Shown: positions 552 to 4,575 of the stretch, piece by piece
Layout: every line of letters begins with the position of its first letter
Position numbering within the stretch: the stretch's first letter is position 1
Assembly: GCA_027731885.1 (NCBI GenBank)
Contig: JAQCAO010000041.1
Span: 1-10,765 of the forward strand
Origin: Actinomycetota bacterium
GTDB taxonomy: Bacteria > Actinomycetota > Actinomycetes > Nanopelagicales > Nanopelagicaceae
Direction of reading: 5' to 3'
Length of the DNA: 10,765 bases
The notes under the pieces: model-generated
The model's input: only the letters and a program-made list of their open reading frames with translations
The model's database searches: none
Told to the model about the DNA's origin: nothing
Made by a program: the position numbers and the translations under genes

Positions 552-1190
552 TTAAACAACTCCGTAAAGACGATCGCCAGCGTCGCCTAAACCAGGAACG
601 ATATATCCGTGGTCGTTTAACTTCTCATCGAGTGCGCCAGTGACAAGAGTGATCGGAACCCCCGAATTAGCAAAAGCATCTTCGAGCACTTTTATTCCTT
701 CAGGAGCTGAGAGAATGCAAATGGCAGTGATGTCATCGGCGCCACGTTCGATTAAGAAGTTAATCGCCGCAACCAGAGTTCCACCGGTTGCCAACATCGG
801 ATCTAGTACAAAGCATTGGCGGCCAGAAAGATTTTCAGGAAGACGATTTGCATATGTGCTCGCTTGCAGCGTTTTCTCATCGCGAACCATTCCGAGAAAA
901 CCAACTTCGGCGGTTGGGATCAAACGTGTCATTCCTTCGAGCATGCCAAGACCTGCACGCAAAATTGGAACGACGACTGGCCTTGGGTCAGAGAGCTTCA
1001 ATCCAGTCGTCGCAGAAACCGGAGTCTTAATCGAAACTTTTTCGGTGCGGACGTCGCGAGTTGCTTCATAGGCGAGCAGGGTCACGAGCTCTTCAACTAA
1101 GTGGCGAAATGTTGGTGAATCCGTTCTTTCGTCGCGCAGAACGGTCAATTTGTGGGTAATCAGCGGGTGGTTGGCGACGTGAACTTTCAT
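552..1190 (-). CDS. upp: Uracil phosphoribosyltransferase
   Basis: Pyrimidine salvage: uracil plus PRPP gives UMP and pyrophosphate. The protein has 212 residues, close to the usual 208-210 for bacterial Upp, and is collinear with the family from [10 protein letters not shown] to the C-terminus. Visible signatures are PILRAGLGM (about 75-83), the PRPP-binding loop [12 protein letters not shown] (127-138), and the uracil-binding C-terminal segment [15 protein letters not shown] (196-210). The ATG is preceded by AGGAG with only about 2 nt spacing, which is short but is the only candidate. The gene is divergent from the TadA-associated gene. Possible -10 boxes in the short interval are TATTCT and TAAGGT (read on the minus strand); neither has a convincing -35. 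It is followed without a gap by the malic enzyme gene, so the two are probably co-transcribed. Confidence 0.97.
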
Positions 1191-1224
1191 GGCTCCTACC
1201 TTACAGGGGTTTCCAACTCGCCCA

Positions 1225-1719
1225 ATGAGTGAGAATATGGTGGATGTGACGGAAGCAATGGTGGACGAGGTAGATATCGCAGTTGCTGCGTGGCACGAGG
1301 ACGGCCGCTGGAATCTCGCGCTGTTACCTGACGCACATGATTTACCTCAAATTATTGATCGCCTAAAGTCACAGCAAACAAATGGTGGCGCGATCGCTTT
1401 ATTGGCAATCGATGAAGAATTCTTTATGTTGATACGCGTTTTAGGATCACACATCAGCATGTTTTTAAGTGATGTGACTTGTGCAATGGATTATGCAGTC
1501 GCCGCAGAATTTCTCGAACTCTGTGATTTAGATTCTCCTGAAGAAGATGAAGAACCTCTTCCGGTTGGGCATTTAGATATTTTGGCAGATCTCGGAGTTA
1601 ATCAAATGGAACTCTCTGCACTCTGCGATGATGCAGAACTTTTTCCAGATGAACAATTAGAAGCGATCGCTAGCCGCCTAGGATTTGCCGAACAATTCGC
1701 TGAGTTATTGGAGCTATAA
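1225..1719 (+). CDS. tRNA adenosine deaminase-associated protein
   Basis: A small acidic protein (164 residues from this start) of the actinobacterial family that sits directly upstream of tadA. The molecular role is not established; the name comes from gene neighbourhood. Recognisable blocks are [14 protein letters not shown] near the N-terminus, [16 protein letters not shown] in the middle, [18 protein letters not shown], an acidic linker (DSPEEDEE), and a C-terminal helical block, LDILADLGV through [20 protein letters not shown]. The start is uncertain. In-frame ATGs lie at 1189, 1225, 1237 and 1258. The 1189 ATG overlaps the upp start codon on the other strand and leaves no leader. I chose 1225 because it leaves room for the divergent upp leader. 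1258 ([12 protein letters not shown]) has a weak GGAAG in front of it and a possible TATGGT -10 at 1236, and is nearly as good. tadA follows 29 nt downstream. Confidence 0.85.
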
Positions 1720-2181: not shown

Positions 2182-4515
2182 TTAAACCAATAGTTCGTAA
2201 GAAGGATTCAAGATAGTCAGCGCACCTTCTTCTTCGCCGACCATGCCTTCTGCACGAATCTGCGAACCGACTTCAAGGCCTGCGATCTCGCGGCGACCTA
2301 AAAATTGCAAAGTAACGCCACCGGTCTGATCCCAAACTTCGACTTGAAGAATTGGGGCTGATCCACGCGGTGCGCTCTTAATCGCTGTCACCTTGCCTTG
2401 AACATGGGCTCGCTTGCGCCACTGAATCTCGCCGATAGGTGTCATTTCTTCTGCGTAGTGGCTAACGGGTTCAACGTTCTTCATAACATCTTCGATTGGT
2501 TTAAATCGCGCAACAGGTGCGGCCACCGGTTTCACTTCACTTGGCGCAGCAAGGGTTAACTGTGAGGATGAAGTAATGCGATCCACGTCAAAAGGAACAA
2601 TGGTTGCGACGACGCGCTGCAATTGAGAAATAGGTGCAGCAATCTCTTCAGCAGTTTGATCGTGAAGCAAGCGGCCAAGGAAACCTGAATATGAACGGCG
2701 CGGAAGCAAGAGCGTCAATTCAACATCTTGCTTCTCGGTCATACGAATTGCATAGTCAAGTGCTGAGTTTGCAAGGCGTCTATCCGGGCAGTCGATTAGT
2801 TCGAGAGTCACATCATCTAGCGCATCTGATTTTGCCCACGCCTCTTTAATATCTTCTGCCCGTCGATCGTCAATTACAAAGTGAACAGCGCTTAGATTTC
2901 GTGGCTTAAGGCTACGCGCGTAACGAACCGCACCAACCGTTGCGATATCTACATTGTCAACAAGAACTGTCACATCGTGTCGTGCGATTGAAGTCGCACG
3001 CTCCTGATGTTGCTTGATAGTAAGTGCTTTTTGTTCGCGTGCGTATTGCTTATTAAATTTCAACATTAGAATCACAACTAATGGCGTACCGATTACGACA
3101 ACCCAGGTGCCTTGTGAGAACTTCACTATTGAAAGAACTAGAACTGTAAAAACTGCAATCGCAGTTGAGATACTGTGCGATAAAATTTTTCGCTTTGGCA
3201 GCTTTAGGCGGATACTCCTTTTTGTCATTCCCGCTCCGGTTAGGGCGAACCCCACAAATACTGAGAGGGCGTAAATTGCCGCCAAAACCGTAATACTCGC
3301 TTGAGTAACAATGACCAATAGCGTGGCGAAACCAGCTATAAATAAAACCCCATTTGAAAAGACTAATTTATGGCCACGTTGTGTCAGCCTACGAGGCAAA
3401 TAACCATCGTTAGCCACCATATTGACCAAATTAGGAAATGCGGTAAAACAGGTATTTGCGCCTGCAAATAAAATAAGCATGGTTCCAGTTTGAGTTAGGA
3501 TGAAAAGAATATCTCCAATGAGTCCATCACCAAGTGCAGCCTTCGCAATTAGTGAGATCACAGTTGGTGTTCCATCGGCATATGGAATTGCCTGAGTTTC
3601 TTTGGCAAGCCAAGCAATACCGATAATTAAAGTGCCTAGAGTGGCGCTCATGAGTATCAATACTTTTTTCGCATTTACGTGCCCTGGGTTTTTAAATAAC
3701 GGAACACTATCTGAGATCGCCTCAAGTCCAGTGAGAGATGCGCTTCCATTTGCAAATGCTTTTAGTATTAAAAGCATCGCCGCAACTGAGAGCAAACCTT
3801 GAGCCTGTCCGATTGGAACCAGCCCCTCCGTATCTTGGCTATAGACCGGCAAAGTTCCTGCAAAGTATCTATAAATTCCAAAAATGAAAACAATAAGCAT
3901 TGAGCCCATGAAGAGATAAGACGGAATTACAAAAAAAGCACCTGCTTCTTTTACTCCTCGTAGATTTACATAGGTAAGAGTAAATACGATTAAAACTGTA
4001 ATTTGTACCTTAAATGGATTTAACTCTGGGAAGGTTGATAAAAGTGCAGCAACTCCTGCGGCAGATTGAATTGCAACAGTAATGATGTAGCCAAACATAA
4101 GTTCAACAGCTGCAACTTGTGAAACTACTCGTCCAAAGTTTTCGCGAGAGACAAGATAGGCGCTGCCAGAACGTGTGTATGTTGTAATAACGTCGCGATA
4201 TAGAAGTGTGATTGCGATCAACATCACGATGATGATCCCGATCATGGGAGGGAAAATCGTAAACGCTGCGAGACCGAAGGCAGGAATTAGCGCAACAAGT
4301 ATCTGCTCGCCGCCGTAGGCAGAGGAAGAGATGCAGTCAGAAGAGAGAACTCCAAAAGCATTCTTCTTACTTAACCTCTGGGAGGACAAGGTGTGGCGAT
4401 TAAGCGGTATCCCAAGGAAATACTTTTTGACTTTGTAACTTAATGGGTCTTTAAGGTGACCCAGTTCTCGTCTAACAACTGGTGTATCCGCACCATCCGT
4501 CCAAGACTTTGGCAC
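2182..4515 (-). CDS. KimA-like APC-superfamily potassium transporter with Usp-like domain and C-terminal OB-fold
   Basis: A membrane transporter of 777 residues (numbered from the GTG start). The core at about residues 30-490 has roughly 12 hydrophobic segments and, from memory, aligns with Bacillus KimA (YdaO), a high-affinity K+ importer. Matching blocks are FGVLSSDCISSSAYGGEQI (Asp60, Tyr67), LYRDVITTYTRSGSAYLVSREN, TGLEAISDSVPLFKNP (Glu265) and LFAGANTCFTAFPNLVNMVANDGYLPR. Residues about 512-640 form the cytoplasmic Usp-like domain also present in KimA. After a Pro/Ala/Val-rich linker (641-695) comes an OB-fold (696-776) ending in TLQFLGRREIAGLEVGSQI and TILNPSYELLV. That domain is normally a separate actinobacterial protein (Rv2694c-like). 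An ATG at 4572 would also open the frame, but the GTG at 4515 has GAAGGAG exactly 5 nt upstream, so I use it. Amino-acid transport is a weaker alternative. Confidence 0.88.
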   Translation of the reverse strand: MPKSWTDGADTPVVRRELGHLKDPLSYKVKKYFLGIPLNRHTLSSQRLSKKNAFGVLSSDCISSSAYGGEQILVALIPAFGLAAFTIFPPMIGIIIVMLIAITLLYRDVITTYTRSGSAYLVSRENFGRVVSQVAAVELMFGYIITVAIQSAAGVAALLSTFPELNPFKVQITVLIVFTLTYVNLRGVKEAGAFFVIPSYLFMGSMLIVFIFGIYRYFAGTLPVYSQDTEGLVPIGQAQGLLSVAAMLLILKAFANGSASLTGLEAISDSVPLFKNPGHVNAKKVLILMSATLGTLIIGIAWLAKETQAIPYADGTPTVISLIAKAALGDGLIGDILFILTQTGTMLILFAGANTCFTAFPNLVNMVANDGYLPRRLTQRGHKLVFSNGVLFIAGFATLLVIVTQASITVLAAIYALSVFVGFALTGAGMTKRSIRLKLPKRKILSHSISTAIAVFTVLVLSIVKFSQGTWVVVIGTPLVVILMLKFNKQYAREQKALTIKQHQERATSIARHDVTVLVDNVDIATVGAVRYARSLKPRNLSAVHFVIDDRRAEDIKEAWAKSDALDDVTLELIDCPDRRLANSALDYAIRMTEKQDVELTLLLPRRSYSGFLGRLLHDQTAEEIAAPISQLQRVVATIVPFDVDRITSSSQLTLAAPSEVKPVAAPVARFKPIEDVMKNVEPVSHYAEEMTPIGEIQWRKRAHVQGKVTAIKSAPRGSAPILQVEVWDQTGGVTLQFLGRREIAGLEVGSQIRAEGMVGEEEGALTILNPSYELLV

Positions 4516-4520
4516 AAAAA

Positions 4521-4527
4521 CTCCTTC
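4521..4527 (-). promoter_or_regulatory. Ribosome-binding site deciding the transporter start
   Basis: Read on the minus strand this is GAAGGAG followed by TTTTT and then GTG (4515-4513). The strength and 5-nt spacing point to the GTG start, not the ATG 57 nt further upstream (4572), which has no such signal and would lie 3 nt from the gabD start codon. Confidence 0.7.
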
Positions 4528-4563
4528 AGTTACCGCGGCTAGCGCGTTCAATTGCCTTTTCAG

Positions 4564-4569
4564 TATGCT
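4564..4569 (+). promoter_or_regulatory. Possible -10 box of a leaderless gabD transcript
   Basis: TATGCT fits the TANNNT pattern of an actinobacterial -10 element. It ends 6 nt before the gabD ATG at 4576, so transcription would begin at or next to the A of the start codon. No Shine-Dalgarno sequence precedes gabD, which agrees with leaderless expression. No good -35 hexamer was seen at 16-18 nt. Confidence 0.4.
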
Positions 4570-4575
4570 CATCTT

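Follow-up and report, generated by a model that had tools for sequence, protein, structure and literature searches.

An OB-fold domain fused to a KimA-type transporter ties a widespread actinobacterial protein of obscure role to potassium uptake

An OB-fold protein that is widespread in actinobacteria, including mycobacteria, carries no annotation beyond nucleic acid binding. In a stretch of 10,765 nucleotides from a member of the Nanopelagicaceae (GCA_027731885.1, contig JAQCAO010000041.1; the whole stretch is called the window here), a related domain appeared at the C-terminus of a KimA-like potassium transporter. We therefore asked whether this fusion is genuine, where its two halves come from, and what an OB domain might do on a potassium transporter.

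The layout of the gene is given in Table 1. The linker (about 2595 to 2431) and OB domain (about 2430 to 2182) had been placed correctly to about 10 bases by the earlier note. GTG 4515 is perhaps the true start, because residue 20 is the first start codon in 13 of 21 homologues from the order (Nanopelagicales) and because ATG 4572 lies only 3 nt from ATG 4576 of the divergent aldehyde dehydrogenase gene. In the full-length model, linker residues 669-707 were mostly below pLDDT 50, and ten-residue blocks of the OB domain (711-796) scored 80-88. The fold likeness listed for the cytosolic domain was taken from descriptions of KimA (PMC10284832, PMC6994465).

Table 1. Features of the fusion gene in the window
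Feature	Position	Strand	Extent and basis
kimA-OB fusion gene	2182..4572	-	796 aa from the longest ORF; 777 aa if the start is GTG 4515
Transmembrane core, KimA/APC fold	3019..4437	-	residues ~46-518; K+ and proton residues present
KimA-type cytosolic domain, PPAT/Usp-like	2587..2985	-	residues ~530-662; predicted alpha/beta pattern
Linker, predicted disordered	2440..2586	-	residues ~663-711; full-length structure prediction
OB-fold domain	2185..2439	-	residues 712-796 (last 85); homologous to the stand-alone OB of the TrkA/KimA cluster

Residues 46-641 matched Bacillus subtilis KimA (6s3k/8b70) with an E value of 2e-83, and by sequence the protein is a putative KimA-type K+/H+ symporter of the KUP family with an APC fold. 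When KimA residues are numbered as in PMC10284832 and PMC6994465, the K+ residues D36, Y43, T230 and Y377 correspond to D79, Y86, T281 and Y434 of the window protein, and the proton residue E233 corresponds to E284. The position of KimA D117 is occupied by G161. Among 74 close full-length relatives, the window included, all 19 type II cores have G at this position and all 55 type I cores have D. D117 is the proposed trans-inhibition residue and, according to PMC6994465, transport does not depend on it; a glycine there therefore does not bar membership of the KimA family.

Scanned on its own, the tail matched PF01336 at 6.1e-6 to 1.8e-5 (26.5 and 25 bits), just under the curated cut-off of 27. 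The same family went unreported in a scan of the full-length protein, and a stand-alone relative (L076) reached 31.3 bits. The isolated domain was predicted as an OB barrel with a mean pLDDT of 96, and its top Foldseek matches were likewise OB folds (CST/Stn1, RPA, RecG and LysRS). The tail is thus, by prediction, a five-stranded OB barrel, which together with the KimA match confirms the description of the protein as a KimA-like transporter with a C-terminal OB fold. Polyubiquitin matches in a PDB profile search were taken as noise, and a phage search found nothing.

The tail had also been likened to a stand-alone OB protein encoded in a cluster with KimA-like and TrkA-type genes. This homology was borne out by hhalign (99.7%, E 1.4e-26, 46% identity over 84 columns), and the conserved OB positions G15, G48, G58, G65, N78 and P79 are present in the window OB. 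The cluster OB protein is presumably Rv2694c, and the cluster-type KimA Rv2690c, of M. tuberculosis.

The window derives from a MAG of 118 contigs, and the kimA core is mosaic; both facts would suit an artefact of assembly or annotation, or an accidental read-through. The mosaic breakpoint, however, lies near residue 545, away from the linker, and the same full-length allele is present in another assembly, on a 6312-base contig (protein cluster P0121, 93 member sequences). The same fusion was found in single-contig genomes of the genus (e.g. G001 and G002) and in the complete chromosome of Ca. Planktophila lacus (NZ_CP016769; L100), which excludes an assembly join at the linker, as the earlier note had wished to see checked, and makes an artefact of any of these kinds vanishingly improbable.

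Outside the fusion, the OB exists in two other arrangements, as a gene of the cluster in many Actinomycetes and, in some Acidimicrobiia, as a closely coupled gene immediately downstream of kimA. In the latter class (that of G577), an OB reading frame directly followed 15 of the 16 tail-less kimA genes fetched, all of the clade to which the fused KimA belongs (clade A, below), and it often overlapped or abutted the kimA stop. Seventeen distinct junctions were compared (the 15 fetched loci plus L170 and L174): seven were 4-nt overlaps of the form ATGA or GTGA, three were TGATG, three had a 1-nt gap, three had overlaps of 20-38 nt and one was ambiguous. L194 was dropped from the tail-less set as it is fused, L173 was left out because it is cut by a contig end, and the count likewise leaves out G750, whose tail-less clade-A match lies at the edge of a contig. 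L170, L171 and L174 had been candidates for tail-less genes lacking the OB; this was ruled out, their OB being an overlapping downstream gene.

Phylogenetic trees were built without near-identical and partial loci (L184 was left out as a repeat of L171); the OB tree had 85 columns, and all were quick trees. The fused KimA fell in clade A and the cluster KimA in clade B, a split with an SH-aLRT of 100, and on this tree the fused KimA is placed as an old paralogue of the cluster KimA. Consequently, the earlier proposal that two members of one cluster had fused stands for the OB, which is homologous to the cluster OB, and fails for the KimA half; direct fusion of cluster KimA with cluster OB in this lineage was rejected. 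Parsimony on clade A gave six changes among the fused, split and OB-less states. There was no OB in 25 of 126 clade-A rows of known state (a Streptomyces clade, tandem Mycobacterium copies and two others), and therefore the OB is not required by every KimA.

The TrkA cluster itself was examined in 14 fused genomes of the order. In 13, DUF3159, CeoC, CeoB and the methyltransferase were kept and both kimA and OB were gone; in the fourteenth (L085) the kimA slot was empty and the contig ended before the OB side. The same double loss was seen in a genome of another family (G296). The fused gene occupied the cluster kimA slot in G161 and lay beyond the methyltransferase in G337, and the separate OB was gone from both. 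The cluster was present in G153 and G197 (L204, L205); in the tree, the fused genes of the genus to which these two belong fall together with named Mycobacterium rows.

An OB match was found in 136 of 151 genomes of the order, three of them with the stand-alone form only (G035, G060 and G111, genus g8), and the 15 genomes without an OB match had no KimA match either. In the class sample, the fused form was carried by 40 of 41 order genomes, none of these 40 having a separate OB. The anticipated loss of the stand-alone gene where the fusion occurs was thus seen in these 40 genomes; several genomes, however, carry the fused and stand-alone forms together, and G159 keeps a stand-alone OB in addition to a single, fused KimA. 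The fusion is not confined to this lineage: of the 353 class genomes from outside the order, at least 20 carry it. Across 394 genomes, 320 had both KimA and OB, 21 KimA only, 9 OB only and 44 neither (Fisher p 3e-33, without correction for kinship). The exceptions count against a KimA-OB link: OB was undetected in 21 of 341 genomes with KimA, 16 of them in a single family (f36), and 9 genomes have OB with no KimA match.

A literature search, covering in part the texts that name Rv2694c or Rv2690c, found no description of a KimA-OB link. In M. smegmatis transposon sequencing after benzyl alcohol, two of three overrepresented genes tabled in PMC10547480 were MSMEG_2768 and MSMEG_2772, the OB protein and a permease; the genes between them, MSMEG_2769 and MSMEG_2771, are given as TrkB and TrkA in PMC5401905. 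Identification of MSMEG_2768 and MSMEG_2772 as OB and KimA-like rests on annotation and gene order. In contrast, a table for dibucaine lists the permease and lacks the OB gene (PMC10127668). Because insertions in the OB and the KimA-like permease were enriched together in the one M. smegmatis experiment with benzyl alcohol, we consider that the OB is an accessory cytosolic domain of KimA which most likely supports or gates K+ uptake, a reading we hold with reasonable confidence. The overlapping split pairs, the concerted gene loss, the co-occurrence and the joint listing in this experiment strengthen the link to potassium transport that the earlier note had suggested. The window protein would carry its extra OB domain on a flexible tether beneath the cytosolic domain of a K+/H+ symporter, as an accessory transporter part that elsewhere may be made as a separate subunit. 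The OB would contact KimA, and its effect on KimA would be positive.

We then considered the TrkA-type proteins. Two strong TrkA_N matches were present in 20 of 20 genomes and TrkH (PF02386) was matched in none of these, in a search whose control responded in 11 of 14 genomes. With no TrkH matched, one may ask what it is that the paired TrkA proteins regulate. At 10 of 27 loci (L171 and L184 counted as one case), ceoB and ceoC lie on the opposite strand beside a clade-A kimA of either the split or the fused kind. The OB could mainly be a docking module that tethers the RCK proteins CeoB and CeoC to KimA, in one K+ uptake complex replacing TrkH-TrkA. Both of these observations would fit such a role, as would a CeoC search of 74 genomes, in which CeoC was found in all 9 genomes with OB and without KimA and was not found in any of the 16 f36 genomes where KimA occurs without OB. 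However, CeoC is retained in 28 of 44 genomes that lack both KimA and OB, f36 may represent a single event, and the CeoC data come from those 74 genomes only. Docking as the main function is therefore possible, though we lean against it. Under the favored reading of an accessory domain supporting or gating uptake, the OB probably still acts together with CeoB and CeoC, which are retained though no TrkH was found.

The OB might instead bind single-stranded nucleic acid or tRNA in the manner of RPA, RecG and anticodon-binding OBs, and so recruit RNA or ribosomes to the membrane, or let the level of RNA, as a measure of K+ demand, set uptake. Most of the top solved folds matched bind nucleic acid, the Pfam and NCBIfam matches, weak for the most part, were to RecG and to OB families of the nucleic acid kind, and R49 and R50, which follow strand 3, were kept in at least 90% of 36 sequences. 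Mean net charge was positive at +1.2 in fused (64), +2.9 in split (17) and +3.7 in cluster (11) domains, but the window OB itself is about -1 by letter count, and OB folds bind proteins and small ligands too. We regard this role as unlikely, while allowing that a nucleotide or nucleic acid may bind the OB of an otherwise accessory domain.

The earlier note also thought an added cytoplasmic sensor plausible, given that cyclic di-AMP controls KimA in Bacillus, and the added OB might accordingly sense c-di-AMP or another dinucleotide. KimA of B. subtilis is reported in PMC10284832 to be inhibited by c-di-AMP. The KimA pocket is partly conserved in the window protein, with equivalents of R337, H579 and Q581 present and V457, P479, V506, N580 and S582 substituted. 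P479 and V506 of KimA touch c-di-AMP through the backbone, and S582T is a mild change. A diadenylate cyclase domain was found in 0 of 17 genomes of the order, the control responding in 11 of 14. A review drawing partly on unpublished data (PMC10117811) lists six RCK_C proteins in S. venezuelae and attributes c-di-AMP binding to only two, Vnz_27460 not among them; to judge from gene numbers, Vnz_27460 adjoins the KimA-like Vnz_27465. The missing cyclase and the partly kept pocket argue against this suggestion; they make control by c-di-AMP unlikely in this order, and sensing of such a dinucleotide by the OB is highly improbable.

Taken further, and only tentatively, the actinobacterial 'Trk system' might be a three-part K+ importer in which KimA is the transporter, CeoB and CeoC are RCK sensors, and the OB is a gating subunit whose signal would be a nucleotide or RNA. 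Natural evidence for contact between KimA and OB would then come from the fused gene and from the split pairs that overlap. In any case, the fusion, kept in freshwater and many other actinobacteria, and the tight gene coupling give a widespread protein a concrete partner, KimA, and a test. That small-genome freshwater actinobacteria keep the fusion and have no c-di-AMP cyclase domain suggests potassium control without the signal used by Bacillus.

Compared with known systems, the Trk system (TrkH plus TrkA) shares the two TrkA-type RCK proteins with these genomes, whereas a TrkH match was missing from all 20. The cluster-type KimA belongs to the same family and has CeoB, CeoC and OB as partners in the genome, but forms the separate clade, is about 35% identical to the fused KimA and has no OB tail. 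The stand-alone cluster OB (MSMEG_2768 by annotation) is a homologous domain, with GRRxIxG and NPxY-like motifs in most members, encoded by a separate gene with its own N-terminal stretch in place of the linker. The RecG wedge, RPA and anticodon-binding OBs share the OB fold, with weak sequence similarity in the case of RecG; unlike them, the window OB is attached to a membrane transporter and has no helicase or synthetase parts. Finally, B. subtilis KimA (6s3k, 8b70, 8b71) and the window protein have in common the transport core, the K+ site, the proton residue and the cytosolic alpha/beta domain, whereas the window protein differs in its partly altered c-di-AMP pocket, in the glycine that replaces D117, and in its extra linker and OB domain.

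The protein encoded by the fusion gene of the window (see table) consists of a transporter, a linker and a C-terminal tail. Bacillus subtilis KimA aligned to residues 46-641 (E 2e-83), and the best match of the full-length structural model was 8b70, KimA with c-di-AMP (E 6.5e-32). After the linker, the C-terminal 85-residue domain was predicted to form an OB barrel with a mean pLDDT of 96. Its Foldseek neighbours were the OB folds of CST/Stn1, RPA, RecG and LysRS, and the isolated tail scored 25-26.5 bits against PF01336, for which the cut-off is 27. The first start codon lay at residue 20 in 13 of 21 homologues from the order of the window, and because of this GTG 4515 may be the start of the fusion gene. 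Window residues were mapped through the KimA alignment onto positions given in PMC10284832 and PMC6994465; the K+ site and the proton residue were retained (D79, Y86, T281, Y434 and E284). By sequence and site residues, the fusion protein is a member of KimA/KUP. One relative (locus L037 of genome G026) has N at the K+ site aspartate D36, the counterpart of window D79. The source MAG of the window (contig C99) is 1.16 Mb and 81% complete.

Features of the window and of the predicted fusion protein
Feature	Position	Strand	Remarks
kimA-OB fusion gene	2182-4572	minus	longest ORF on minus strand, 796 aa
Linker	about residues 663-711		mostly pLDDT < 50 at 669-707 in the predicted structure
176-aa ORF	1189-1719		between upp and deaminase gene; no Pfam match at E 0.001

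Profile comparison of 13 tails from the order with 10 stand-alone OB proteins gave a probability of 99.7% (E 1.4e-26, 46% identity over 84 columns), and seven divergent tails from families f4 and f38 gave a weaker match (96.8%, E 2.7e-10, 22%). By homology, the OB tail is a member of the cluster OB family. The stand-alone gene lies in a conserved cluster of dut, DUF3710, OB, DUF3159, CeoC, CeoB (opposite strand), KimA and a TRAM methyltransferase, with members confirmed by Pfam in two loci (L017, L044). This order was present in two f4 genomes (L204, L205) and in f19 (L206); f18 (L207) had the same order, but with dut and DUF3710 turned round. From their placement in the tree of KimA cores, we took f4 for Mycobacteriaceae and f19 for Streptomyces. 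In that tree, of 123 cores, the 16 rows of the cluster type form clade B, apart from the 107 rows of clade A, which holds the fused and split forms. The division between the two clades has an SH-aLRT of 100, which rules out that the fused KimA is the cluster KimA.

The order of the window was taken for Nanopelagicales (Ca. Planktophila), since a Ca. Planktophila lacus locus (L100) and L034 of genome G012 share the same core. A second class, that of genome G577, was taken for Acidimicrobiia because a locus so titled (L171) shares its junction with L184 of genome G719. In this second class, 15 loci carried 16 tail-less clade-A kimA genes, and an OB ORF stood directly after 15 of the 16, the exception being one tandem copy. 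These loci together with L170 and L174 gave 17 distinct kimA/OB junctions, as L171 repeats L184. Seven had a 4-nt ATGA/GTGA overlap, three had TGATG and three a 1-nt gap; three others overlapped by 20-38 nt, and one was unclear. Junctions of this kind are typical of translational coupling. Considering the split junctions, the cluster and the fusion, OB therefore exists in three arrangements: its gene can be coupled to an adjacent kimA or lie in the cluster, some kilobases away from kimA, or it can form a domain of the fusion protein. Tandem clade-A kimA genes were seen in L059, L060, L064, L154 and L178, loci that belong to or group with Mycobacterium; L178 has two tail-less copies followed by a fused copy.

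An OB match was found in 136 of 151 order genomes, and the 15 without one had no KimA hit either. Most listed matches in the order lay in open frames of at least 700 aa, and the dozen or so in shorter frames were taken for contig ends. Three genomes of genus g8 had a 133-aa stand-alone OB as their sole form, and one genome (G135) had both forms. In the class sample, the fused form was present in 40 of 41 order genomes, none of these 40 having a separate OB, and at least 20 of 353 class genomes outside the order carried the fused gene. KimA was hit in 93 of 198 genomes of the second class, where 34 among the matches listed extended to the OB end. Named carriers of the fusion include Ca. Planktophila lacus, Mycobacterium triplex, M. 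simiae and two Kitasatospora. In three loci titled Bifidobacterium breve MAG (L099, L106, L111), the fused gene is of the freshwater-order type and shares 58-83% identity with that of the window; these titles look wrong.

For 14 genomes of the order that carry the fused gene (L079-L091, L097), the TrkA locus was inspected. In 13 it consisted of dut, DUF3159, CeoC, CeoB and the methyltransferase, without kimA or OB. L082 had one additional ORF between DUF3159 and CeoC, and L089 and L091 are short contigs, yet both slots were covered. In the 14th genome (L085), nothing occupied the kimA slot, and the contig stops short of the OB side. The same loss of both genes was seen in another family (G296, L092), and the g8 cluster (L017) retains both. 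In G161 (L046) the kimA slot holds the fused gene, with the separate OB and DUF3159 missing from the cluster; in G337 the fused gene has the methyltransferase on one side and acn on the other, and the separate OB is gone. The simplest reading is that one fused gene replaced two genes. Fusion is not always accompanied by loss, because fused and stand-alone OB occur together in G156, G159, G170, G176, G185, G200, G202, G208, G326, G345 and the fused f4 genomes; in G170 the fused gene is next to a cluster that contains an OB and a kimA of its own, the latter in pieces in the ORF call.

Co-occurrence was assessed in the class sample of 394 genomes, with KimA scored by the window protein (E <= 1e-20) and OB, in either form, by profile A1 (E <= 1e-9). 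KimA and OB were both present in 320 genomes, KimA only in 21, OB only in 9 and neither in 44 (Fisher p 3e-33, uncorrected for kinship). The KimA cut-off is not a family test, and other permeases may account for a few weak matches near E 1e-40. The sets were derived from gaps in the handle numbers of two listings, and their sums match the tallies of 341 and 329. Sixteen of the 21 KimA-only genomes belong to family f36 (e.g. G260, G288, G306); in these 16 the KimA match was kept, CeoC was not found and OB was not detected. CeoC was present in the other five, three of which are incomplete (80-91%), in all nine OB-only genomes and in 28 of the 44 genomes without KimA and OB (families f17, f20, f23). 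From these counts, OB tracks KimA more closely than it tracks CeoBC, and it is also absent where CeoBC alone seems to have been lost. TrkA_N gave two strong matches in all 20 genomes tested, and TrkH was found in none of the 20. For S. venezuelae, a review gives TrkH, KtrB and KtrD as not found and reports two KimA-like proteins (PMC10117811).

Residues ~51-545 of the window protein (window 2930-4420) were closer to genome G039 (L032), at mostly 82-94% identity per 50 residues and 68% at 451-500, than to G012 (32-72%), which shares its core with Ca. Planktophila lacus. Residues 551-796 were nearest to G012 and Ca. Planktophila lacus at 94-98%, but 76% at 651-700. The same mosaic was shown by protein cluster P0121 (93 member sequences). 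On sequence grounds, the transport core of the window is a recombinant allele. Window 4090-4092 (residue 161) encodes G where KimA has the proposed trans-inhibition residue D117, and among 74 close full-length relatives this site was G in all 19 type II cores and D in all 55 type I cores. Thus the core can be replaced without the cytosolic part and its OB. Glycine at this site might relieve K+ feedback inhibition.

The c-di-AMP pocket of KimA is only partially retained in the window protein, and the diadenylate cyclase domain (PF02457) was not found in any of 17 order genomes (G000, G001, G002, G007, G008 and 12 more). Because of these two results, control by c-di-AMP is unlikely in the order, barring an unknown cyclase. 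Among the other genomes tested the domain was found in 2 of 3, and among the controls in 11 of 14.

A table of M. smegmatis Tn-seq after benzyl alcohol gives three overrepresented genes, MSMEG_2768, MSMEG_2772 and MSMEG_5694, the first annotated as an OB-fold protein and the second as an amino acid permease; the word "potassium" is absent from the main text of that paper (PMC10547480). MSMEG_2769 is TrkB and MSMEG_2771 is TrkA (PMC5401905), and therefore MSMEG_2768 and MSMEG_2772 flank Trk genes, as in the actinobacterial cluster. Because insertions in either gene were enriched after recovery, this single screen, with gene identities by annotation and order, suggests that the effect of OB goes in the same direction as that of the permease. 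In a single dibucaine screen, the permease was listed without the OB gene (PMC10127668). We propose that OB is a cytosolic accessory to KimA and that it supports K+ uptake or gates it, probably in concert with CeoB/CeoC; we infer its contact with KimA, the sign of its effect and its ligand alike. The OB of the fusion protein would work in the manner of a regulatory domain added to a KUP transporter.
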